From positions 744,001 to 808,000 of the forward strand of contig NZ_VCHA01000001.1 in assembly GCF_016597815.1 (NCBI RefSeq): a stretch of 64,000 nucleotides of DNA, written 5' to 3'. Both the position numbers and the translations under genes were made by a program. Below, one piece after another: positions 2,993 through 54,378 of the stretch. This DNA comes from Marinobacter sp. DY40_1A1. Lineage in GTDB: Bacteria; Pseudomonadota; Gammaproteobacteria; Pseudomonadales; Oleiphilaceae. Position 1 is the first letter of the stretch. The number at the start of each line of letters is the position of its first letter. The notes below the pieces were generated by a model. That model was not told the DNA's origin. It saw nothing but the letters and a program-made list of their open reading frames with translations, and did no database searches.

Positions 2993-3301
2993 TTATTCTC
3001 CTTTATTTTTATAGAGGTCTTTAATAATTGGAGGCTTTGGTGGCTTGGAGGAACGCCCCAGTTGTTCCCAGAGAAAGCCTAGGGCGTAGTAGTAGTCTCT
3101 TGTATAAGAGGGACTATAATTTTTTTCATTAAAGAAAGTTTTGACATGTCTTTTGCCTATTTGAGCAGGTGGACAACCGCAATATTTAATGAATAGTTTT
3201 ACTTTTCGAACTTCCTCTGCTCGACCAGACTTTCCGCCTTTTTTTTGGTAATTGGAAAGCCGAAGATAGAGGGCGTCTAGACTATTAAATTTATTTGACA
3301 T
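2993..3301 (-). CDS. Small SAM-like/core-binding-type partner of the recombinase
   Basis: The 102-residue protein overlaps the 3' end of the upstream recombinase gene by 11 bp, so the two are translationally linked. The sequence is basic and short. The segment KVKLFIKYC...HVKTFF, followed by SPSYTRDYYYALGFLWEQLG, resembles the helical N-terminal SAM-like (core-binding) domain of tyrosine recombinases, but no catalytic domain follows. It could be an accessory DNA-binding subunit or directionality factor for the integrase. It is less likely to be a remnant, since the frame is intact with a clean overlap. AT content is higher than in the chromosomal genes to the right, consistent with acquired DNA. 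The domain reading is tentative. Confidence 0.55.
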   Translation of the reverse strand: MSNKFNSLDALYLRLSNYQKKGGKSGRAEEVRKVKLFIKYCGCPPAQIGKRHVKTFFNEKNYSPSYTRDYYYALGFLWEQLGRSSKPPKPPIIKDLYKNKGE

Positions 3302-4211
3302 TTCTATGCTTTCCTATATAGGAGTTAGTGATATTTAAGCGCGCATGACCCAGCTCCTTAGATATGATTTTACGCGCTTTATTATCAAGCTCTTTGGAGG
3401 CGAACCCACCAAGAACCGGCGCTGGTTCCCCAGTAATGGTTTCATATCTATTACATGCGTAGACGGCTCTAAGGTCTCTAATCGATGCTATGCTGAATTT
3501 TTTCAGGTTAGATATCGTTTTATGGATTTCGTTATCTAAGAAGTTTTTCCAGCTTAGATCCTTGGGTATTAATGAAAAATGATCGCCTTGAAGAGCAGCG
3601 CCTGCCTGTAGAATTGCTATTTGCTCATCTGGATTGGTTATTGTGATGCTGCGAGGCCTGCCTCCTTTTGTCCCAACGTGTAAATCGATAGATATGCCCG
3701 ATTCTGTTTGCTTCAGTGCTTGTTGGTAATTTAGCAAGCAAGCCTCTTTCTCTCTTAGACCCATGGACCTTGCCGCACGAACAATTACTGCACCTCGTAC
3801 TAAACCAACCCTGTTGAGCTGTTCCAGGGATTCCTCAAATTGCTCTTCGTTGAGACCTGACGGGGCAACCATTCTAATGTTACACCTGCGCGAAATTTCA
3901 CAGTCTCGCGTAGGGCTCACCGAGCTCCAATCGCCCTGCCGAAGCGTTTTCATCGTAGTATTAACTGCGGATACTAGGTTTTGCGCATAAGCTGGTTTGT
4001 TCTGAGTTAGGTGTTTGCCGAACTCAATAACCATCTCCCGAGTGATAGATTTTTGCTTGAGCGGGTATGATCGTTCAATTAAAAAATCCACGAAAATGCG
4101 CCAACGATCAATCAGTGTTCCGTATGACGAATACGAAAGTGTTTTTTCAGCGACTCGTGCTTTTAGTGCGCATCTTGCAGCGGCAACTAGAGACTGCTTT
4201 TGTTTATTCAT
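3291..4211 (-). CDS. Tyrosine recombinase (integrase-domain protein)
   Basis: The start is placed at the ATG at 4211 (MNKQKQSLV); the open frame extends further upstream, but that leader lacks family character. The product has about 307 residues. An N-terminal DNA-binding part spans roughly 1-130. Catalytic-box candidates are the Arg in RAARSMGLREKEA (box I), a Lys in GTKGGRPRS, an Arg in IRDLRAVYA and the C-terminal ELGHARLNITNSYIG, which contains the box-II His and the nucleophilic Tyr. This is the arrangement of integrase-domain proteins found at the edges of genomic islands. The following small gene overlaps it. No attachment site could be proven nearby. Confidence 0.8.
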   Translation of the reverse strand: MNKQKQSLVAAARCALKARVAEKTLSYSSYGTLIDRWRIFVDFLIERSYPLKQKSITREMVIEFGKHLTQNKPAYAQNLVSAVNTTMKTLRQGDWSSVSPTRDCEISRRCNIRMVAPSGLNEEQFEESLEQLNRVGLVRGAVIVRAARSMGLREKEACLLNYQQALKQTESGISIDLHVGTKGGRPRSITITNPDEQIAILQAGAALQGDHFSLIPKDLSWKNFLDNEIHKTISNLKKFSIASIRDLRAVYACNRYETITGEPAPVLGGFASKELDNKARKIISKELGHARLNITNSYIGKHRNVK

Positions 4212-5149
4212 AAATGTGTCTCGACTAAGGAAAATATAGAAAATGTAATATGCCGGCACCCCGTTAAAACTATGTATGTTGAGTGTTGGTTGAAGACCGT
4301 CTTCAGCTACGGCCGGCATAGCCGTCAGATATCGAATTTAATCGTTGGGGATTTCGTAGCGCTTGGCCGGGGTGAGGCAATGCTGGCATGGTTCATTGAC
4401 CATGAGAGCTCCGGCGCCCCTGCGAGGATTTTTTTCCTTGCAAGCATTTCACTGACCGAGAAATGTATCCCTTTTTACTGGAGGAACTGACTTTTAGTAG
4501 GATTTCGTAGGAAAGGCCTACTAATTCAGATCCAGTAAGTGTTTGATAAATGGCAGTTTTGTGTTTATAACAAAAAAGCGTCTCTGTTAAGGATTTTGTT
4601 TTTTAAAAAAATCGCCGGTAGTTTCGAGTTCAATTTTTCACTCGATTCTAGGGATTTATATTGATGAGTGCCTGGGAGTTGATGCTCCTAGGTGGTTTGC
4701 GGTATGCCCTGCCAAGAAAACTTGGTGGGAGGGATTTTTCTTTTGTGATTGCTGTTTGAGCGCTTCGTACGATCAGCTAACTAAATACTAAATGCGCCCA
4801 GCTAGCGCATTAGCATCTTTAAGTTGCTGACATCACCTTAAATACTAAAGTCGTTTATCGGTCATGGCAAGTGTTTTTTTTAAAAATACATTTGCATGTC
4901 GCATGCGACTAGTTAAGTGCGACGAACGAACAACTATGAGTTAATTGTGTCTAAAATGCTCTCGATTAATTGAGTTCTGGCTTATTGTGCGCACATAGAC
5001 GTCGCTTGCGACGAGTAATCAAAATATATGGTGTAATGAACTCGAATAGAAAAGCAGTTTGTTAGTGGAGTGCAAAAGTAGAATTCAGGCAACCATAGTC
5101 AGTTAGTGGTTTTATTTTGCACTTCCTCTGGGCTTCCTACGCCCCAGAG
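4212..5149. other. Gene-free AT-rich stretch upstream of the recombinase
   Basis: No convincing coding region is present; the short open frames here lack family features. Two near-identical perfect palindromes, GTCGCATGCGAC at 4898-4909 and GTCGCTTGCGAC at 5001-5012, lie 103 bp apart. A 7-bp inverted repeat (TAGTAGG/CCTACTA) lies near 4496-4523. These could be recombinase or regulator sites, but nothing confirms it. Confidence 0.4.
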
Positions 5150-34908: not shown

Positions 34909-35290
34909 AGACTCTGTTAAGCAGCGAAATGAGAGTACTGGATGACAGAACATTGCTAAACCAGTCCTCCAATAGTGCTACATCATCGCATTTCTCACGT
35001 TTTAAACTGTGTTTTCAGAAGGTTACGTGGCTATCGATCCAATCCATCATCGGCGCGACGCAAAAGCGCCGGGATGGCTCTGGCCCGAGGTTTTCAGGAG
35101 TTCCTGAGGTGTTTTCTGAAGGGATGGTATGGATCATTTTTTACTCAACGCTGCCCGTTTATGGTCGCAACTCGAAGGTCGGCTTCCAGGCTGAAGGGTT
35201 CAATCGAAGGGACCACTTAAAGAGGGCAATTCTATCAGGAAACCGGCTTGGATGGCTTGTTGGGGACAACCAGTGTTACACCTGGGTTAA
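34905..35290 (+). other. Unassigned open frame and junction DNA before the cytochrome fragment
   Basis: An open frame beginning at the overlapping ATG (34905, MKTLLSSEMRVLDDRTLL) runs to 35390, but its 3' part lies in the cytochrome gene in another frame. The product resembles nothing I know, has no consistent composition and lacks motifs, so a chance or scrambled frame is as likely as a gene. The DNA probably marks the insertion or deletion junction that removed the start of the cytochrome gene. Confidence 0.3.
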
Positions 35291-37000
35291 ATGGTTGTGT
35301 TGGCTAAGCAGAATGTTGGTTGTCAGGGCTGCCACGGCCCGAGTGAAAAGCATGTGGATTGGGCAAGAGAGCAGGGGCAAGACCAGGTAGAAAAGGCCGG
35401 CCCTGCTGAGGGTATGGGCCTGCTGGTTGATTTTGGCGGGATGGCCCCTGGCAAGGTGGTCGAAGCCTGTGCCTATTGCCACAGCCGCCGCCAGAGCATT
35501 CAGGACGGGCAACATGCACACGAGGGCTATTTGGACAAAGCCTTGCCAGCGGTGCTGATGCCAGACATGTACCATGCTGATGGCCAAATTCAGGGCGAGG
35601 TGTATGTTTACGGCTCGTTTACTCAGAGCAAAATGGCGAAAGCGGGCGTTACCTGCCTGGATTGCCACGACCCACACACCACAAACCTGAAAATTGAGGG
35701 CAACGGTTTGTGTCTGCAATGCCACAATCCGGCTCCGCCCGAGCGATTTCCTACCCTTAAAGCATCGAATTACAACCTTGCGGAACATCACAAGCACCCG
35801 GAAAGCTCAGAGGGTGCGCAGTGTGTGAATTGCCACATGACCGATGAAACTTACATGATGGTTGATCCACGGCGAGATCACAGCTTCCGTATACCCAGGC
35901 CGGATTTGTCGATCACTTCCGGTAGCCCGAACGCCTGCAACAGATGCCACGAAGACAAATCTGCCCAGTGGGCCCTGGGCATTCTGAAAAAGTGGTACCC
36001 CGATAGTAAGAAGCCAGAGCACTTGGCAGATACTCTGCAGGCTTTCCGTGCCGGCGAAACGGATGCCATGAGCCGGTTGGGGCTTCTGATCAGGAAGACC
36101 AGCGAGCCCGCGATAGCGCGAGCAACCGCAGCAGAACACCTGAGCACCTTCGGTGGTGATTCAAGATTCTTTCTGCGTTCCGGGCTGTTTGATAAGGAGC
36201 CGCTTGTGCGCGCCTATTCTGCAGGAGCCTTTGCTCAGATACCGGTTGGCGATAACTTGAAAGTACTGGTGTCGCTGCTTGGTGCTGACCAGCCCAAGGC
36301 GGTTCAGGATCAGGCACTTTCAGCACTGGCTGGCGCAGATTTGAGCGGGTTGTCTGAGGCAGAGCGAAAGCGCTTTGATGAATTGAATTCGGATTATCAA
36401 AAGCGTCTCGAAAGCCTGTCTGCACTTTCCGGGTCCCGCTTTAATTGGGCAAATTATTTGCGGCGCTCCGGGAAAACAGACGAGGCGATCGCGCAGTATC
36501 AGAAATCACTTGAGCTGGATGCGACCTTCTCACCTGCCCGTGTGGCTCTGGCCACGCTGGCCAGTCAGGTTGGCAAGCAGGCGCTGGCAATGGAAACATT
36601 GCGCGCCGGGAGCCAGTCTGAACAAATACCTGACACCGACCGAGGGTACCTGGCCTACCTGTTATCGTTGGTTTTGGTGGAGGAAGGCCAGGACGCGGAG
36701 GCACTTCGCAGCTTTGAGTTGGCGTTAAAGCTTAACCCCGAGAACCCACGGGTTGCCTACAACTACGGGTTGATTCTGGTTCGCCAACAACAGTGGGCGC
36801 AGGCTGAGCGCGTGCTTGGGGCAGGCTTGCAGGCCCACCCCTCGGATTACAATGTGCTCAACGCCCTGGTGCATTTGCACCTGCAGAAGGGAGAGCTAAA
36901 GCAGTCTCTCGGGTTCGCCAGGAAAATGTTGGAGCTGTACCCGGATGACTCATACAGCCGCAATGTGGTGCAAAGGTTGGAACATGCTACTTCCAGGTAA
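35291..37000 (+). pseudogene. Multihaem cytochrome c with TPR repeats, 5'-truncated
   Basis: The 569-residue frame contains six CXXCH haem sites: CQGCH 11, CAYCH 60, CLDCH 122, CLQCH 141, CVNCH 178 and CNRCH 216. A linker follows and then several TPR units (about 365-565, e.g. AIAQYQKSLELDATFSPARV, ALRSFELALKLNPENPRVAY). Proteins of this type, cytochrome c554-like with TPRs, normally begin with a signal peptide and one or two further CXXCH sites about 150-200 residues earlier. Here there is no signal peptide, and the first CXXCH comes ten residues after the only available start, just where homology breaks off. It therefore appears truncated and would not be exported for haem attachment. Its stop overlaps the convergent hydrolase by 14 bp. 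Confidence 0.8.
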
Positions 37001-37826
37001 GGTGCAAGTCACCCCGTAGAAACAGCAACGCATCTCTGGTCGTTTGCTCCGGTAGTTCCTCCATGGGGATATGCCCTGCGGTGGGGTAGACAATCAGCCT
37101 CGCCTTCGGGATATCTGCCATCCATTTGTCTGCAAGCTCCAGGGGAACCCGGGCTTCGATCATTTTCAGGGTTATAACGTACTGAGGCTTTGCGCCCGGG
37201 CGCAGGTTCATATGTACGTAGTGCATGTAATCCTCTTCGCGCACACGGCTTGAGTCGCCGTAAATCCAGGAAACGTTGAGAGCAACCATCCAGGCCGGTT
37301 GAATGTAGTTACCAACAAACGCGACGGGAGGGAAGGTGCCGAGGCTGAGTATCCAGGGAGTGTCTTGCGGGTAGCCGAAGGGGTCCAGAAGAATAAGCAT
37401 ATCGACCCGGCCAGGATTTTGGGCTGCATATCGTGCGGCAATGTAACCGCCTAGCGAGTTCCCTGCGAGCGACACGCTTCTCAAGTTCAACTTGTTCACG
37501 AATTTCTCGAAGGTAGCGGGAGCGTGCTCTTCGTCGAAATCATCCAGCTTGGGTGGCCCGCCGGTCAGGCCAAAGCCCGGCATATCCAGCGCAATTACAC
37601 GGTGAGTTTTTGAGAGTTCGTCTTTCCAGGCATCCCAGGTTTGCAGAGACGAAAAGATTCCGTGCATCAGGATGATGGTGTTGCCTTGGCCGCGGTCCTG
37701 ATAGTGAATGTTGTAGCCATTCACCTTTACGAATTTCGAGTATTCGTTGGTATATCGCTTTGCCAGATCCTCCATGTCCATGCTGATCAATCCACCCCAG
37801 TGGCTTAGGGTAGGCGCTGCCTTCAT
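36987..37826 (-). CDS. Alpha/beta hydrolase, probable lipoprotein with damaged start
   Basis: 279 residues from the first ATG (37826). Hydrolase features: oxyanion HGIFSS near residue 55, nucleophile elbow GNSLGG (about 123), acid region ILLDPFG or later, and catalytic His in TAGHIPMEE. The frame continues upstream of that ATG without a stop to about 37970 and encodes RLFPLLALPLLVVTLSGC, a lipobox signal peptide ending 8 codons before the ATG. No ATG, GTG or TTG precedes it; an ATA at 37923-37925 behind GGAAGAACC sits where the start would be expected. Either a rare start is used or the start codon has been lost. Confidence 0.8.
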   Translation of the reverse strand: MKAAPTLSHWGGLISMDMEDLAKRYTNEYSKFVKVNGYNIHYQDRGQGNTIILMHGIFSSLQTWDAWKDELSKTHRVIALDMPGFGLTGGPPKLDDFDEEHAPATFEKFVNKLNLRSVSLAGNSLGGYIAARYAAQNPGRVDMLILLDPFGYPQDTPWILSLGTFPPVAFVGNYIQPAWMVALNVSWIYGDSSRVREEDYMHYVHMNLRPGAKPQYVITLKMIEARVPLELADKWMADIPKARLIVYPTAGHIPMEELPEQTTRDALLFLRGDLHLTWK

Positions 37827-38103
37827 GGATGCGCCTATGGCTGAGCAGCCAGAAAGGGTAACAACCAGCAGCGGGAGAGCAAGCAGTGGAAACAGGCGGG
37901 AGTTCTTGAAATGAGGGGTGAGTATTGGTTCTTCCAGCGTTATAGAATCTTGACGCTAGCCTCGCAGTAAGCAGAGGTTAAACCATTGACGCAATTGACC
38001 TGAACTCTGGGGTAATTTATGTCATACCTTCCTAACCTATTGACTGTAAATGGAAGGCTGTGCTCCGTGGCCGCGTGAGGTACTGTTCAGTCTGTGCGCT
38101 CGG

Positions 38104-39051
38104 TCACAATAGGGTGTGAGATGCAACATTCGCCACCCCAAACGGAATATGCACCATAGGAATATCCCCGGCATCAGATTCCAGGTGAAATCGTTGGTCA
38201 TCAAAGAACATATGAGGCTTGAGCACGTTCAAAATACGGTCTTTCTTCATTCCGCCCAGGAAGAAAACCTCATTGGCGTCCACGCCCCAATGTTCCAGCG
38301 TTGTAATCACCCGCTCATGGGAGGGGGCATTGCGGGCAGTCACAATGGCTGTTCGCAGTATTCGCTTATAAGCCGGGTCGTCCGTTAGGGCCTGGTCTTC
38401 CAGCTTTTGCAGGTGTGAAAGCTTGCGGAACAAATCCGCCAGCGGGCCGGGGCTGTGGGGGATTTGCGAGCGGGAGGTTTCGTGTTCCTGAAAGTCTTCC
38501 AGCGAGCCGGCCTTTTAGACCCGCTCTGAAGCGTCATCCGCAATCACGCCATCAAAATCGAACGCTATACGAAGCTCTGTATCCGCTTCATCATCCACCA
38601 CCTTGCTTGGCAGCACAGTGCCAGCCGCATAGCCGTAGTCGATCGCTTGGGATACATCGCCAGCGTTCGCAGACAAGAACAGCGAGGCATTGAATGCCGG
38701 AATGTAGGCGTAGGGTGATTTGCCCTCGAGAAATGCCGCGCGGGTAATATCCAGGCCATGGTGATGAATGGAGTGGAATACCCGTTTGCCTGTGATCACA
38801 GAGTTTCGCGAGAGTAATACCACTTCAACCGGGCACTGCTCTGGGAACTTCTGGTTTATGCTCAAAAACCGCCTCACGAAAGGGAAGGCAACGCCTTTGC
38901 GTAAAGGCTTGTCCAGGTTGGCTTCCTGGTGTTTCCGGTAGGCCTTTTCCCCCTGCTCACGAAATACACGGTCAGACTTCGACAAATCAAACAGGGCGCT
39001 TGAGGCCACCGCGATCACGAGTTTGTCTTCTATGGGGTAGGGCATGGGCAA
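38104..39051 (-). pseudogene. 5'-nucleotidase (PF06189 type) interrupted by one in-frame stop
   Basis: Two open pieces in the same frame, 39051-38515 and 38514-38104, read as one protein of about 315 residues. The first has YPIEDKLVIAVASSALFDL and the HAD-like motif IAFDFDGVIADDASERV; the second continues KAGSLEDFQEHE and ends with GGMKKDRILNVLKPHMFFDDQ. This is the usual layout of the bacterial cytosolic 5'-nucleotidase family. The only lesion is TAA at 38515-38517, where relatives have an aromatic residue after ERV. It is either a recent nonsense mutation or a sequencing error; the rest of the frame is preserved. Confidence 0.85.
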
Positions 39052-39072
39052 AAGGTTCCTTGCTGGTTAGCG

Positions 39073-39472
39073 TCAGGATTCAGCTTTTTTGGCGCTCTCA
39101 TAGCTTGGCAACAGCGGCGCAAACACCTTCTCCCATAACACCTCATAACGCTTTCTTCAGGTCGTTAAATTTATCTTTAACGAATGCCAGAACTGCCGGG
39201 CAGTCGTATTTGCCCCAGCTCAGTTTGTCGCTTTTGCTGTCTTTTACATGGCCATTTACCGATAGCCCCATGCCTTCATAATCAAAGGTCAGGGCGTGGA
39301 AGCCCTGGGTGTTTAGCCAGCGGGCGAAGTCGTCGTACAAGTACTGGGCTACGCCGGTTGCCGGCGCAAGCACGCAAATACCCCGCACCTCGGCACTGTC
39401 GGCTGTAAATAGCCGCGCTGTCAGGTTGTGGCCGGCTTCTGTGGCAACACTATGGCTATCTGGCTGGTTCAT
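39073..39472 (-). pseudogene. Alpha/beta hydrolase fragment with internal deletion
   Basis: The frame from the ATG at 39472 gives 109 residues with the N-terminal third of a serine-aminopeptidase-like hydrolase (GICVLAPATGVAQYLYDDFARWL, HALTFDYEGMG) and stops at 39143, before any nucleophile elbow. In the next frame the sequence resumes as RYEVLWEKVFAPLLPSYESA and ends at TGA 39073-39075, probably the tail of a neighbouring or the same gene after a deletion. Family members are near 290 residues, so about half is missing. It is divergent from the Crp/Fnr regulator. Confidence 0.7.
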
Positions 39473-39638
39473 TACTACTTCTCGTAGACTGATTATTTAA
39501 AGCTTGGGCGCAATAGTGCTGAAAATGAAGCCATTTTGGCAAATCAAGTTGGGACATTCGTATTTGGGTAGCCTTTGTAGAACCATGAGTTATGCTCATT
39601 TGGTGCATGCGGACTATTTAAAGAAGGGAATTGTTTAA

Positions 39639-43883: not shown

Positions 43884-45254
43884 CTATCGCTTTGCGATGT
43901 AAATATAAATAAAAATCACCATCAGCAGTAACGATGACAGGGCAATGGCACCGTTGGGTGGCATCCAGAGAAAAACATCCAACAACCCCGGAAAGTCATC
44001 TTTTGGAAGGCTTCTGGAAGCTGTGGTGAGAGAGATAAAAAGCTCCACTAAGGCCACGCCACCAATCCCGGCCAGTATCAGCTCTACGGTTTTGTCTACG
44101 CGAGATTTGCGGGCAGCTAGCAACCGGGCAATGCGCGAACGGATCAGGTCAGTTCGCTCCAGGGCGCTTTGAATCAGCCCATCAAGCTTCCATGCTGCAC
44201 AGCTATCGTTCACTATCGCGGCTCTGTCACCCTGAACACCCACTCGCGCTTCGTTGAATTCGAGTCTTGAGAACTCGAGATGGTCAAGGCTTTGGGTAAT
44301 ATCCGCCATCAGGCGGTTCAATTCACCATTTCTTGTTCGTTGCGCGCCAAGCAGATCGGTTAGCTGTGAATAACTTGATTTCAGAATCCTGCTGTAGATT
44401 GCCAGTATGGCGTTGTAGTACTGGCATAGGGAAAGGCCTCGAAACCAGTCATCACGGCTGGCCTCTGCGTCTTCGCTAATGACAAGAACGTTGCCGGAAC
44501 CAACGTGGTGCCGCTTTTGCCTGAGATCATCAATGGTGCCGGGAAAGGAGACCCGCTGGCGGAGAGTGTCCCCTGTGGGGCTGTCGAATTTTTCGGGCTT
44601 TATAATTATGCTGCGCCCAGTCCAAAGTACGTGGCTCTCCGGCGCTGTGGGTTCTTTGAAGTGTATGTCTTTGAACACAGTCAGTTTATTTGGGTTCCTG
44701 AGTAGCTGGTCAGGAGCTGATCTGCTCTTTCCGAAGCGGCGGTCGAATTCTTTACAGTAAGTTTGGAAAATTGGGTAGAGCAGCGTTTTGTGTATGTAGC
44801 CAGCCCCATCAGACAGTGTTTTATCGAGACTGCCTGAGGCTGTCAGTTCATCCAGGATGGCATCATCCACGCTGATGACTACGTCCAGCCTTAGAAGTGC
44901 CACAGTGTCGTCATACAAAAATAGCTGGCAGGTTTCGATCTCTCCTCGCCAGTCCTCAACGAGGCGTCTGAGGTTGCTGGAATGAGCAACGCAGTCTGTT
45001 GTATCGATGTTGTAGCAGTCGAAGGGCAGAAAGAATTTCGGAAGGCTGTCATGGGCCAGGGTTCCGTAGCCGTTAGCCCAAGGCCAGTCAATACGGCTCA
45101 AGGCCTCCGACGGGGGTAGCAGGTGCTGATTTGCTCCTTGCGAGGTATCTGGTAAATGTTCCGGAGTGCTGGCAGCTCGCTGTTCACTGTAGGCACTGAT
45201 GGGAGAGCGAATTGGCGAGAGAGTCGCAATCCGTAAAGTAGTTATATTGTTCAT
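43884..45254 (-). CDS. Hypothetical protein with two C-terminal membrane helices
   Basis: 456 residues. A mainly soluble N-terminal part (1-300) is followed by a helical, coiled-coil-like region (ELNRLMADITQSLDHLEFSRLEF) and then two hydrophobic helices near the C-terminus: VELILAGIGGVALVELFISL, and after a short loop GAIALSSLLLMVIFIYIYIA. The overall plan, a cytoplasmic domain, a long helix and a two-helix anchor, recalls CorA-like proteins, but no GxN motif is present (MPPNGA precedes the last helix). I do not recognise the family. It is 17 bp from the LysR gene upstream, on the same strand. Confidence 0.6.
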   Translation of the reverse strand: MNNITTLRIATLSPIRSPISAYSEQRAASTPEHLPDTSQGANQHLLPPSEALSRIDWPWANGYGTLAHDSLPKFFLPFDCYNIDTTDCVAHSSNLRRLVEDWRGEIETCQLFLYDDTVALLRLDVVISVDDAILDELTASGSLDKTLSDGAGYIHKTLLYPIFQTYCKEFDRRFGKSRSAPDQLLRNPNKLTVFKDIHFKEPTAPESHVLWTGRSIIIKPEKFDSPTGDTLRQRVSFPGTIDDLRQKRHHVGSGNVLVISEDAEASRDDWFRGLSLCQYYNAILAIYSRILKSSYSQLTDLLGAQRTRNGELNRLMADITQSLDHLEFSRLEFNEARVGVQGDRAAIVNDSCAAWKLDGLIQSALERTDLIRSRIARLLAARKSRVDKTVELILAGIGGVALVELFISLTTASRSLPKDDFPGLLDVFLWMPPNGAIALSSLLLMVIFIYIYIAKR

Positions 45255-49993: not shown

Positions 49994-50892
49994 TCGGCAC
50001 TCGGTTTTTTTGCAAGTCCCTTCGTTTCCTGGGCTTTGTTCAGCATGGCAGAAGACTCTACTTCTCTGCCTTGTTTGGACAAGGCTTCAGCCAGATTATT
50101 CCAGCCAGCACTAATATCAGGAAATTGTTCGGTCATGGCGCGGTAGTATTTTTCCGCTTCTGACCAATGGCCTTGCTGGTAGGCCAGATTACCCAAACCA
50201 AGCAAGGCTGCAGGTTGATCGGGCCAGGTTTTGGCGGCGGTGCTGTAGGCAAGTTTTGCAGCGTTTGTTTGCTGGGTCGTTTCCAGATCGTGGGCTGCCA
50301 TCAGGAATTCCAACGGCTCCGCCGTCGCAGGCAACCGATCTGGCGGCAGCATTACCCGTGCCCATCGCTCCGAGCGATCCCAGGTTGCCATAAAAGCGCT
50401 GGCGGGCAGGCGGTAATTCTCTTCTGTTCCGGAATGCAGTATCAGCACTTCCTTTTTGCTGTCGTAGCCAATTACCACGGCAAAGTGCCATTGCGGCCAC
50501 CATCCAAAACGAAGGTTCTGCAAAACCAGAACCGGGTGCCCAGCTTCAACTTCCTTTAGCACAACGTCCAATTCCGGCTTCAGCGGATAAACCAGCATGC
50601 CGTATTGGCGAGCCGCTGCCACCATCTCGACCTGCAACGCGCCTTTGCGCTCAGGCAGGTAGACTTTGCTTACCAATTCATCGGGCGTTGCCTGCACATC
50701 CTGGGCGTTGAGCATCATCGCAAGAGAAGCAGGGCCACACTGATACAGCTCTTGAGGATGAAAGGGTACGTTGGTAAGCGTGGCTTTTTCGTAGGCATCG
50801 GGCCATCTTGGTTGGCTGGCGCAGCCTGAGAGGATAACCCCCAGGAGCGCCACCAATAGTAGCCGGGCCGAATGTGGCCGGAAAGTATGCAT
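49990..50892 (-). CDS. PA2778-type cysteine peptidase lipoprotein with TPR
   Basis: 300 residues. Lipoprotein signal with lipobox VILSGC near residue 24, so the protein is anchored on the periplasmic side. A C39-like cysteine peptidase domain has the Cys in YQCGPASLAMML (about 51) and the His in PQWHFAVVIGYD (about 136). The C-terminal third has TPR helices (ALLGLGNLAYQQGHWSEAEKYYRAM). This is the PA2778 family, always paired with a PA2779-type membrane peptide, which here starts 12 bp upstream. It may process or export the partner. Confidence 0.9.
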   Translation of the reverse strand: MHTFRPHSARLLLVALLGVILSGCASQPRWPDAYEKATLTNVPFHPQELYQCGPASLAMMLNAQDVQATPDELVSKVYLPERKGALQVEMVAAARQYGMLVYPLKPELDVVLKEVEAGHPVLVLQNLRFGWWPQWHFAVVIGYDSKKEVLILHSGTEENYRLPASAFMATWDRSERWARVMLPPDRLPATAEPLEFLMAAHDLETTQQTNAAKLAYSTAAKTWPDQPAALLGLGNLAYQQGHWSEAEKYYRAMTEQFPDISAGWNNLAEALSKQGREVESSAMLNKAQETKGLAKKPSAD

Positions 50893-50903
50893 GGAGGTGA
50901 TGT

Positions 50904-51305
50904 TTAGCGAATGCAGTTAATAAACGGGAAGATATCCGTTGCACACAGCATGTCTGTAATAATGAAAACCAGCAGGAACAGTACGATTATTCCTACAACT
51001 CCTTCACCAGTCGGTGCTTCGGCAAGCTGCTGTTTAAAGTCTGCAAGCTCAGAGGGGGTGAGGCTTTGAATTCTCTCTCGTACTTCCTGTTCGCCCACGC
51101 CCATGCTGGCAAGCGCGCCTTTTACGTCTTCGCGCTCCAGCATGCTCATCAGAGCTTCTCGGTCGATATCAGCCCTTTGTTCAGTCAAGAGTTCGCCGGT
51201 ACCAACAATGTTGGCAGAGGCAGGAATTGCCCACATAGAGCTCAGTATCATTACCAACGCCATAATGGCGGAAACGGACTGGGTGTAGGATCTTATGGCT
51301 TGCAT
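50904..51305 (-). CDS. PA2779-type membrane protein
   Basis: 133 residues. Signal sequence SVSAIMALVMILSSMWAIPASA, a helical middle (LSMLEREDVKGALASMGVGEQEVRERIQSLTPSE) and a C-terminal membrane helix GVVGIIVLFLLVFIITDMLCATDIFPF. It matches the PA2779 family and directly precedes the PA2778-type peptidase gene in the same transcript. The middle helical segment may be the peptidase substrate. Function unknown. Confidence 0.9.
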   Translation of the reverse strand: MQAIRSYTQSVSAIMALVMILSSMWAIPASANIVGTGELLTEQRADIDREALMSMLEREDVKGALASMGVGEQEVRERIQSLTPSELADFKQQLAEAPTGEGVVGIIVLFLLVFIITDMLCATDIFPFINCIR

Positions 51306-51423
51306 CAGGCTGCTCCTGCTAGTTGTTGCTTTGGATATTGATTCTGGATCAGTCAGAGCATAAGTGTAAGCATTTGCGCGCCATTTGCCGTTAAAACCAG
51401 ATTAACATGCATTAACTTCCGGT

Positions 51424-52137
51424 TTAGATTTGGTGACGAACAAGCATTGTCTTGATCCGGCCAATTTGCTTCATGGGGTTGAGCCCCTTCGGGCAATAAG
51501 CTGTGCAGTTACCAATTCCCCTGCAGCGAAATACGCTGAACGGGTCCTCCAGCTTTGCCAGGCGCTCAGTCGTTGCTGTGTCTCGCGAATCCAGTAAAAA
51601 CCGGTGGGCTTGTAGCAACCCCGCTGGTCCCACGTATTTTTCCGGGTTCCACCACCAGGAGGGGCAGGCGGATGAGCAGCAGGCGCACAGAATGCATTCG
51701 TACAAACCATCCAGTTTTGCACGATCTTCCGGGCTTTGGAGTCGCTCGATCGCGGGTCGCGGTTGGTCGTTTATTAACCAGGGCTGAATGCTTTTGTATT
51801 GTTTGAAAAACAGGGATTGGTCTACCACCAAATCACGGATAACTGGCATGCCGGGGAGTGGCCGGATGACCAGTTTGGACGACTTGCCAAGAACATCGGC
51901 CACCCGGGTAATGCAGCCAAGCCCATTGCGGCCATTAATGTTAAGGCCATCCGAGCCGCACACACCCTCACGGCAGGAGCGGCGGAAAGAAAGCGTGGGA
52001 TCGACCGTTTTCAGGTACTCAAGAACGTCCAGTACCATGCGGTTGCGGTAACTGGCATCCACTTCCACATCCTGCACATAGGGCGTGTTGTCAGTTTCCG
52101 GGTTGTAGCGATAGAGTTGGACGGTGATAGTTTCCAT
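51424..52137 (-). CDS. Succinate dehydrogenase iron-sulfur subunit-like protein, without SdhCDA
   Basis: 237 residues. All SdhB cluster cysteines are present: SCREGVCGSDGLNING...GLGC for [2Fe-2S] near residues 55-77, CILCACCSSACP for the [4Fe-4S] cluster near 148-159 and CRGIGNCTAYCPKGLNP for [3Fe-4S]/[4Fe-4S] near 206-222. The quinone-site neighbourhood is changed: the His and Ser-Ile-Met usually seen as CHSIMNC read CRGIGNC. The WWW stretch near 163 is kept. No sdhC, sdhD or sdhA genes lie nearby; the next genes on each side are unrelated. It could be a duplicate SdhB or a subunit of another fumarate/succinate enzyme. Confidence 0.85.
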   Translation of the reverse strand: METITVQLYRYNPETDNTPYVQDVEVDASYRNRMVLDVLEYLKTVDPTLSFRRSCREGVCGSDGLNINGRNGLGCITRVADVLGKSSKLVIRPLPGMPVIRDLVVDQSLFFKQYKSIQPWLINDQPRPAIERLQSPEDRAKLDGLYECILCACCSSACPSWWWNPEKYVGPAGLLQAHRFLLDSRDTATTERLAKLEDPFSVFRCRGIGNCTAYCPKGLNPMKQIGRIKTMLVRHQI

Positions 52138-52395
52138 TGCGTTATCCCTCGTTGCCTCGCTGAAGCGCGAAGGGCCAACTGCCGGTTAAGCGCGCTCCAA
52201 GTGATGTTAACGTCCAAAGTTCTAGCAGAGGCAGGTAGCTTTCACCTACGGATATATCAATTTGTACGACTCGGGAATGATCCAGCGCATTGCGGTTGTC
52301 TATGTTATTCATTTTAGTGGTGATGATGAAAAGAATGGCCGCAATTTAGTCTATGCTTAGGGCAGTTCCTATCAAACAAGTTTGGGCTCTTGATC

Positions 52396-54378
52396 ATGTC
52401 TGAAGCAGACGCTGCCGTTTTCGAAATTTTCCCATGGAACCGGAATTTTGAAACGGGCATTGAAACAATTGATGAGCAGCACAAGGTGCTTGTTGAAATA
52501 GTTAACAGGCTTGCCTGGCATTTCGCATCCAGCAACTCCGAGCTTGAAGTTAGCCATGTTCTCGATGAGTTGCTTTCTTATGCCGCTTACCATTTCAAGG
52601 CTGAGGAGGAAATCTGGAAAGCTACTCTCGGTGAGCAGGAAATGGTGCAAAACCACCACGATGGCCATCAACTGTTCTTCGTTCAGATCCAGATGTTTCG
52701 CTCCAGTGATGAGCCAGGGGAGAAAGTCATGAGCGATTTGTTCTCCTACCTGACCCGATGGCTGGCATTTCATATTCTGGAGTCTGATCGCCGAATGGCT
52801 CTCACCATCAAAGCGGTGGAGCGAGGTGTTCCTTTATCAGAAGCCAAAAATGAAGTTGATAGCGAACTGAGCGGTGCGGTGTCTGTGATGGTTTCGGCCT
52901 TGTTGGAAATCTACGAAAAGCTGGCTGCCAGTGCCATGCAATTGATGCGTGAAAAAATGGCGCGGCTCAGAGCTGAGGATGAACTCGCTCGCTTGCATCA
53001 CGACAACCTTAATTCCGCACTCGAGAAACAAGCGTCAGAGCATGCAGAGCAGTTGCAGTTTCTCGCGTATTCGGATCCTGTTACAGGGCTGATGAATCGT
53101 AATGGAATACTCCGGGAGATCCGGCATGTTATGCAGCAGGAACATCTGCCGGCAGAATCCTTCGCTGTGATCTCTATTGATCTGGATAATTTTCACAAAG
53201 TGAACGCCCGCTTTGGCGAAGAATCTGCCGACCGACTGCTTGGCTTGCTGGCCCGGCGCTGGAAGGATGCAATTGGCAAAGCTGGGAAACTCGCGCGGAT
53301 CAGTGGAGACGAATTTGTTGTGCTTTTGGCCGATAGCGGAAAAGTAGAAGCCCAGCTAAAGGCATTGAGACTAACAGCAGAGCAGCCGTTCATGCTTGAT
53401 GGTGGCAGTGTGAGCATGGCATTCACCGCTGGTGTTGTCCGATTTCCCCATCACGGCGCGGATGATGGGGATACGCTTTTGCGGCAGGCTGACCACACGC
53501 TGTTTCGCGCCAAACAGGAACAAAAAGGTGAGTGGCTGTTTCTGGATGCCGACGCACAGCGCCAGTCAGTTGAGCGCCAGCGGCTTTTGGCGGACATTCG
53601 TGCCGGGCTTGCAGGCGATCAGTTCAGGTTGCTCTATCAACCCAAGGTCTGTCTTAGAACTGGCGGAGTAATAGGTGTTGAGGCGCTGATTCGGTGGGAG
53701 CACCCGGAAAAAGGTACCTTGAGCCCAATGCAATTTTTGCCAGCATTGGAGTATCACCCACTGATGATCAGCATAGGTGAGTGGGTTATTAGCCAGGCGC
53801 TCAGGCAAATGACGGTTTGGGATAGTGAAGGCTTGGCTTTGGATGTGGGTGTGAATATTGCTGCGGTACATCTCCAGCACCCGGATTTTGCAACCAGGTT
53901 GGCCGGGGCGCTGGCCAGATACCCACATGTTGCGCCGCAAAGACTGGATCTGGAAATACTTGAAACAGCTGCTCTTGGTGAGCTTGATAAGGCAGGCAGT
54001 ATTATTCGGGAATGCGAAAGCCTTGGGGTAACCTTTTCATTGGACGATTTTGGTACCGGCTACTCTTCACTTTCGTACCTCAAAAAGCTACCTGTCAGAA
54101 CCCTGAAAATAGACCAGGGCTTTGTAAGCAGTGCATTGTTGAATGGTGACGATAGAGCAATCCTCAAAGGCATAATTGGCCTTTCTCATGCGTTCGACAA
54201 AAAGTTGGTGGCGGAGGGGGTAGAAACCATGGAACACGGGAAGCTTCTGATTCGCCTTGGTTGCTATCATGCTCAGGGCTACGCCATTGCCAGACCCATG
54301 AAACCAGAGAAAATAGCAGCCTGGAAAAAACAGTGGCGGCCTTATCCTGAATGGTCTGCCGGAGAATACGTAAAATAA
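52396..54378 (+). CDS. Bacteriohaemerythrin-GGDEF-EAL protein
   Basis: 660 residues from the ATG at 52396. The N-terminal bacteriohaemerythrin domain has all oxygen-binding ligands in order: IDEQHKVLVEIVN, HFKAEEEIW, NHHDGHQLF and FHILESDRRM. After a helix (about 170-215) the GGDEF domain has DPVTGLMNRNG and SGDEF in place of GGDEF. Then comes a complete EAL domain (EALIRWEHP, LEILETAALGEL, DDFGTGYSSL, LVAEGVET). The protein would sense oxygen or redox through the di-iron site and turn over cyclic di-GMP. The EAL motifs suggest phosphodiesterase activity, while the SGDEF variant may be weak or regulatory. Its stop overlaps the lactate dehydrogenase start by one base, so the two are co-translated. 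Confidence 0.93.
   Translation: MSEADAAVFEIFPWNRNFETGIETIDEQHKVLVEIVNRLAWHFASSNSELEVSHVLDELLSYAAYHFKAEEEIWKATLGEQEMVQNHHDGHQLFFVQIQMFRSSDEPGEKVMSDLFSYLTRWLAFHILESDRRMALTIKAVERGVPLSEAKNEVDSELSGAVSVMVSALLEIYEKLAASAMQLMREKMARLRAEDELARLHHDNLNSALEKQASEHAEQLQFLAYSDPVTGLMNRNGILREIRHVMQQEHLPAESFAVISIDLDNFHKVNARFGEESADRLLGLLARRWKDAIGKAGKLARISGDEFVVLLADSGKVEAQLKALRLTAEQPFMLDGGSVSMAFTAGVVRFPHHGADDGDTLLRQADHTLFRAKQEQKGEWLFLDADAQRQSVERQRLLADIRAGLAGDQFRLLYQPKVCLRTGGVIGVEALIRWEHPEKGTLSPMQFLPALEYHPLMISIGEWVISQALRQMTVWDSEGLALDVGVNIAAVHLQHPDFATRLAGALARYPHVAPQRLDLEILETAALGELDKAGSIIRECESLGVTFSLDDFGTGYSSLSYLKKLPVRTLKIDQGFVSSALLNGDDRAILKGIIGLSHAFDKKLVAEGVETMEHGKLLIRLGCYHAQGYAIARPMKPEKIAAWKKQWRPYPEWSAGEYVK

Follow-up and report, generated by a model that had tools for sequence, protein, structure and literature searches.

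Four consecutive damaged genes beside a genomic island raise the question of whether these genes are truly dead and, if so, whether the arrival of the island killed them. We examined them in a stretch of 64,000 nucleotides (hereafter the window), which corresponds to positions 744001-808000 of contig C9 in the 3.86-Mb genome of Marinobacter sp. DY40_1A1 (G000). The closest relative compared was M. sediminicola F26243 (G060), the sole close relative without the island. A preliminary description of the window had reported, directly to the right of the island, a cytochrome without N-terminus, a hydrolase without normal start, a 5'-nucleotidase with an in-frame stop and a truncated second hydrolase, and it had proposed a comparison with intact orthologues in relatives. 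This comparison bears out all of these observations: open copies exist for all four genes, and the four consecutive genes at 35.3-39.5 kb are each damaged by a different lesion (Table 1). We consider it probable that they are true pseudogenes in a native chromosome segment upstream of dusA, produced as dispensable genes decayed recurrently, one by one, in a dusA hotspot where DNA is also exchanged between species.

Table 1 Features at the right end of the island and in the adjoining damaged segment (window positions, unless a contig is named).
Feature	Position	Strand	Remark
Right direct repeat (attR-like) of the island	35038-35080	+	43 bp identical to G000:C9:703718-703760, longest common substring of both ends
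Displaced original dusA 5' end, about the first 33 codons	35038-35137	-	tblastn of G060 dusA: residues 1-40 at G000:C9:779137-779018
Junction of the 757-bp cytochrome deletion	35307-35315	+	9-bp repeat with one mismatch, where both sides overlap
Remnant of multihaem cytochrome c with TPR repeats	35306-37000 (open frame from 35291)	+	Residues 222-785 of the 785-aa G060 homologue
Alpha/beta hydrolase remnant, lipobox-like N-terminus	37005-37925	-	Start codon lost, 26 residues missing at 37150
5'-nucleotidase pseudogene (PF06189)	38126-39051	-	In-frame TAA at 38515-38517
Hydrolase_4-like gene remnant (second hydrolase)	39076-39481	-	Internal 485-bp deletion at 39155

The limits of the island are given by collinearity with G060, which runs up to C9:703849 and resumes from 779038, and by 43-bp identical direct repeats whose starts lie 75,320 bp apart, defining an island of 75.3 kb. 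The insertion lies within the 5' end of dusA, direct repeats flank it, and dusA is intact through a 5' end supplied by the island: the complete gene at C9:702792-703826 is open and encodes 344 aa (341 in G060), with the first ~22 residues divergent and a Pfam Dus match at E 1.7e-85. Beside it stands the gene for a 365-aa tyrosine recombinase (PF00589, C9:704170-705267). Homologues of this integrase were found at most 0.5 kb from a match to the dusA start in at least 4 of 15 other genomes (G007, G017, G041, G088), the dusA matches coming from a non-exhaustive search.

As described by Farrugia et al. 2015 (PMC4482086), dusA-specific genomic islands share with ours the integration into the 5' end of dusA, the direct repeats, the new 5' end brought by the island, the displacement of the original one to the far side and the position of an integrase next to dusA, ours being a candidate for the dusA-specific type. 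They differ in their repeats, which are described as 21-bp and semiconserved there and are 43-bp and identical here. The word Marinobacter is absent from the main text of that paper. Our island carries, in addition to the integrase, a WYL regulator, SRAP, an impB/mucB/samB-family (IMS) polymerase, a type I restriction system and catabolic and transport genes, and it matches the PADLOC candidate defence families PDC-M27, PDC-S14 and PDC-S26. A second integrase-like gene within the island (window 3291-4319, minus strand; PF12835, E 4.5e-9) may mean that the element is composite. In G095, which is another species, a short match to the island integrase (residues 5-53, 92% identical, at G095:C34:366405-366551) lies beside dusA and is perhaps the trace of a lost island.

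At the cytochrome, the alignment pairs G060 113259-113536 with window 35038-35315 and G060 114285-116179 with window 35307-37201. The 757 bp absent from the window between these blocks comprise 92 bp upstream of the gene together with codons 1-221, and short homology at the junction may have aided the deletion. The remnant keeps 6 of the 8 CXXCH motifs and differs from G060 by 26 synonymous and 18 missense codon differences, all unpolarised; 43 of the 45 nucleotide differences fall within the first 882 of 1680 bases.

The first hydrolase is open in G095 and G085, with long stop-free matches also in G105, G028, G059 and G101. In the window, the codon at the start position of the G095 gene is not ATG, GTG or TTG, and the first in-frame ATG lies 33 codons further on, behind a lipobox-like LSGC. 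Furthermore, 78 bp (26 codons) are gone in comparison with G095 and G085. The missing part corresponds to G095 residues 260-284, including D283, a residue that falls at the position of the conserved Asp in alpha/beta hydrolases of solved structure and that we take to be the catalytic acid; judged from this alignment, the lost 26 residues are likely to include the catalytic Asp. The same 78-bp deletion is found in G060, where most of the gene is lost, where dusA and the cytochrome are separated by a gap of 262 bp with no island between them, and where 22.8 kb of other DNA intervene between the remnant of this hydrolase and the nucleotidase.

Of the second hydrolase, a 308-aa protein in G060, the window retains residues 12-120 (39155-39481) and 282-308 (39076-39156). 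The 485 bp gone from between them are present in G060, G095, G052 and G072.

The nucleotidase stop falls at codon 179 of a 312-aa protein, the rest of the frame being open; the last few codons, past the junction at 38126, are also unlike those of G060. Over the 308 codons compared with G060, the gene shows 12 synonymous changes, 1 missense change and the stop. When three outgroups are added, 3 synonymous changes, the missense change and the stop are placed on the branch of the window and 2 synonymous changes on that of G060, and 7 synonymous changes are assigned to neither. So few non-synonymous changes point to a young stop, and the pattern on the window branch to a gene conserved until recently. 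By these substitution counts, the stop looks recent and the gene looks to have been constrained until recently, which counts against long-standing relaxation.

All four frames are thus disrupted in comparison with open homologues, three of which (cytochrome, 785 aa; 5'-nucleotidase; second hydrolase) are found in G060 itself. Residues needed for function are lost in each gene, D283 in the first hydrolase and long stretches in the other three. Ordinary bacterial pseudogenes likewise show truncations, internal deletions, nonsense mutations and lost start codons in accessory genes whose homologues are open in relatives, and the segment differs from these only in its density, with four neighbours in 4.2 kb.

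To measure this density, we sought in the window's genome the G060 ORFs of at least 100 aa from the collinear flanks, at a protein identity of at least 88%. Shortened genes were flagged in 0 of 40 cases in the left flank, 2 of 42 in the right flank and 3 of 6 at the spot (3/6 versus 2/82, Fisher p=0.0017). The fourth damaged gene, the first hydrolase, stands outside the 3/6, as G060 itself retains no more than a remnant of it. We read the two flagged ORFs of the right flank as ORF-calling artefacts, one being a doubtful 126-aa ORF and the other a short gene whose ORF start differs. In the reverse direction, with genes of the window's genome sought in G060, the flanks gave 2/46 and 1/43 and the spot 1/8, the latter being the first hydrolase. 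The preliminary description had inferred relaxed selection after the insertion from the density of damage: the density does exceed the flank control, but the insertion is not established as its general cause, since the 78-bp deletion of the hydrolase is common to the island-free G060.

In 34.9-39.7 kb we identified four families of direct repeats (14-18 nt) and nine inverted pairs (14-29 nt), none of which was recognised at a lesion junction. Neither the four window proteins and the integrase nor the G060 cytochrome and nucleotidase scored above the NCBIfam cut-offs, and a literature search on pseudogene, genomic island and Marinobacter together returned nothing relevant by title.

We also considered, for the nucleotidase, the cytochrome and the first hydrolase, whether the losses were tolerated through duplicates. 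An intact member of the nucleotidase family exists elsewhere in the genome (G000:C10:567773-568705). The cytochrome has a single other match in the genome, of 24 bits and to its TPR part, and the first hydrolase has a partial match of 30% identity. With matches this weak, redundancy does not explain all four losses together.

The divergence from G060 is patchy around the spot: it amounts to 4.75% at 35.3-36.2 kb, falls to 0.5% at 36.2-37.2 kb, is 1.5% within the nucleotidase and in the flanks mostly reaches 6-15% per kb, indicating recent DNA exchange between species. Further to the right, a tract at window ~50400-53400 with ~0.2% divergence per kb from G060 has likewise been exchanged recently. 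A 456-aa ORF at window 43884-45254 (minus strand) has no Pfam match at E 0.001 and is absent at the corresponding place in G060.

Of 124 genomes searched for PF06189, 46 had matches, which include short fragments. We surveyed 24 regions, picked from DNA matches and PF06189 matches and hence no census, with the cytochrome regions of G056 and G116 left out. In 17 of them the nucleotidase is linked to dusA, with both genes in the same orientation and at a distance of 0.16 to 78 kb. The other 7 are G105, G028, G059 and G101, fetched for the hydrolase, G026 and G074, with a nucleotidase and no dusA in the stretch, and G098, with fragments only. Four of the 17 linked regions have a damaged nucleotidase, each with its own lesion: G000 has the stop, G034 and G085 have deletions that truncate the gene, and G097 has an in-frame deletion. 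This last deletion leaves the frame open and has presumably abolished function. G085 has a damaged second hydrolase as well. Damaged nucleotidases go with a larger distance to dusA (Mann-Whitney two-sided p=0.032, 4 versus 13 genomes, kinship ignored), and the test, again ignoring kinship, gives p=0.047 with G097 counted as intact and p=0.039 without G097. Such an association would fit an effect of insertions.

In the mechanism that we favour, an integration hotspot would lie between dusA and the 5'-nucleotidase, where genes would repeatedly be gained, exchanged between species and lost. The four genes would have decayed singly, by deletions and point mutations, being presumably dispensable and the mutations presumably neutral. 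By inserting into the 5' end of dusA, the 75-kb island has split the segment from this gene; it may contribute to the damage and would not be needed for all of it.

The main competing explanation gives the island a larger part: its insertion would have cut the segment from its context, followed by decay under relaxed selection. The cytochrome deletion begins only 226 bp past the island repeat, the larger dusA-nucleotidase inserts accompany damaged nucleotidases, and G060, which lacks this island, has intact copies of the cytochrome, the nucleotidase and the second hydrolase. We nevertheless regard this sequence of events as unlikely. The presence of the 78-bp hydrolase deletion in G060 argues that this lesion was not caused by the window island. 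The argument falls short of proof, because the tract has been recently exchanged, the deletion could have arisen in either lineage, and the same spot in G060 holds 22.8 kb of other DNA. Both hydrolases and the nucleotidase, moreover, are minus-strand genes whose reading direction runs towards the island, which places their own upstream regions on the far side. Nor does the size of the insert predict the damage in every case, as the nucleotidase is truncated at an insert of 3.65 kb in G034 and intact at 26-32 kb in G060, G095 and G052.

Errors of assembly or sequencing, which the preliminary description had also raised, would explain the lone stop in an otherwise conserved nucleotidase frame, this being what one wrong base call gives. 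Within 4 kb of a contig of 1.28 Mb, however, they would have to account for two large deletions, the loss of 78 bp in frame, an altered start codon and a stop, in a comparison where 80 of 82 flank genes passed, and other lesions occur in the same genes among relatives. Because the lesions differ in kind and the hydrolase deletion is also seen in the independent assembly of G060, we judge such an error very improbable. It is harder still to believe that the shortened frames act as new, functional genes, such as one for a TPR protein derived from the cytochrome remnant. Its open 569-aa frame with TPR and haem motifs would agree with such a role; on the other hand, the remnant has lost the first 221 residues, hence the N-terminal export region, together with 92 bp of upstream DNA, and its 18 missense against 26 synonymous codon differences do not favour it. 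Recurrent decay in the hotspot therefore remains our preferred reading, and it makes the segment a readable example of native-gene decay beside an integration hotspot. It also illustrates the need for an island-free relative before damage beside an island is attributed to that island.

That the same nucleotidase has been damaged repeatedly and independently provides a small testable lead on a candidate defence gene. The intact G060 nucleotidase matches the PADLOC candidate phage-defence family PDC-S08 (E 4e-140). PMC10855318 describes the PDC families as not experimentally validated and reports that PDC-S08 is divided equally between strains resistant and strains susceptible to phage; PMC9252829 makes no use of the term PDC. 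In the PDB, no sequence matched the intact G060 nucleotidase at E 0.001. The dusA-linked PF06189 nucleotidase, with its match to an unvalidated candidate family, might conceivably be a costly defence gene kept beside the integration site and repeatedly switched off as large islands with their own defence genes arrive, a scenario to which we give little credence. A PF06189 nucleotidase of a second type, at G120:C53:14597-15526, carries an in-frame TAG.
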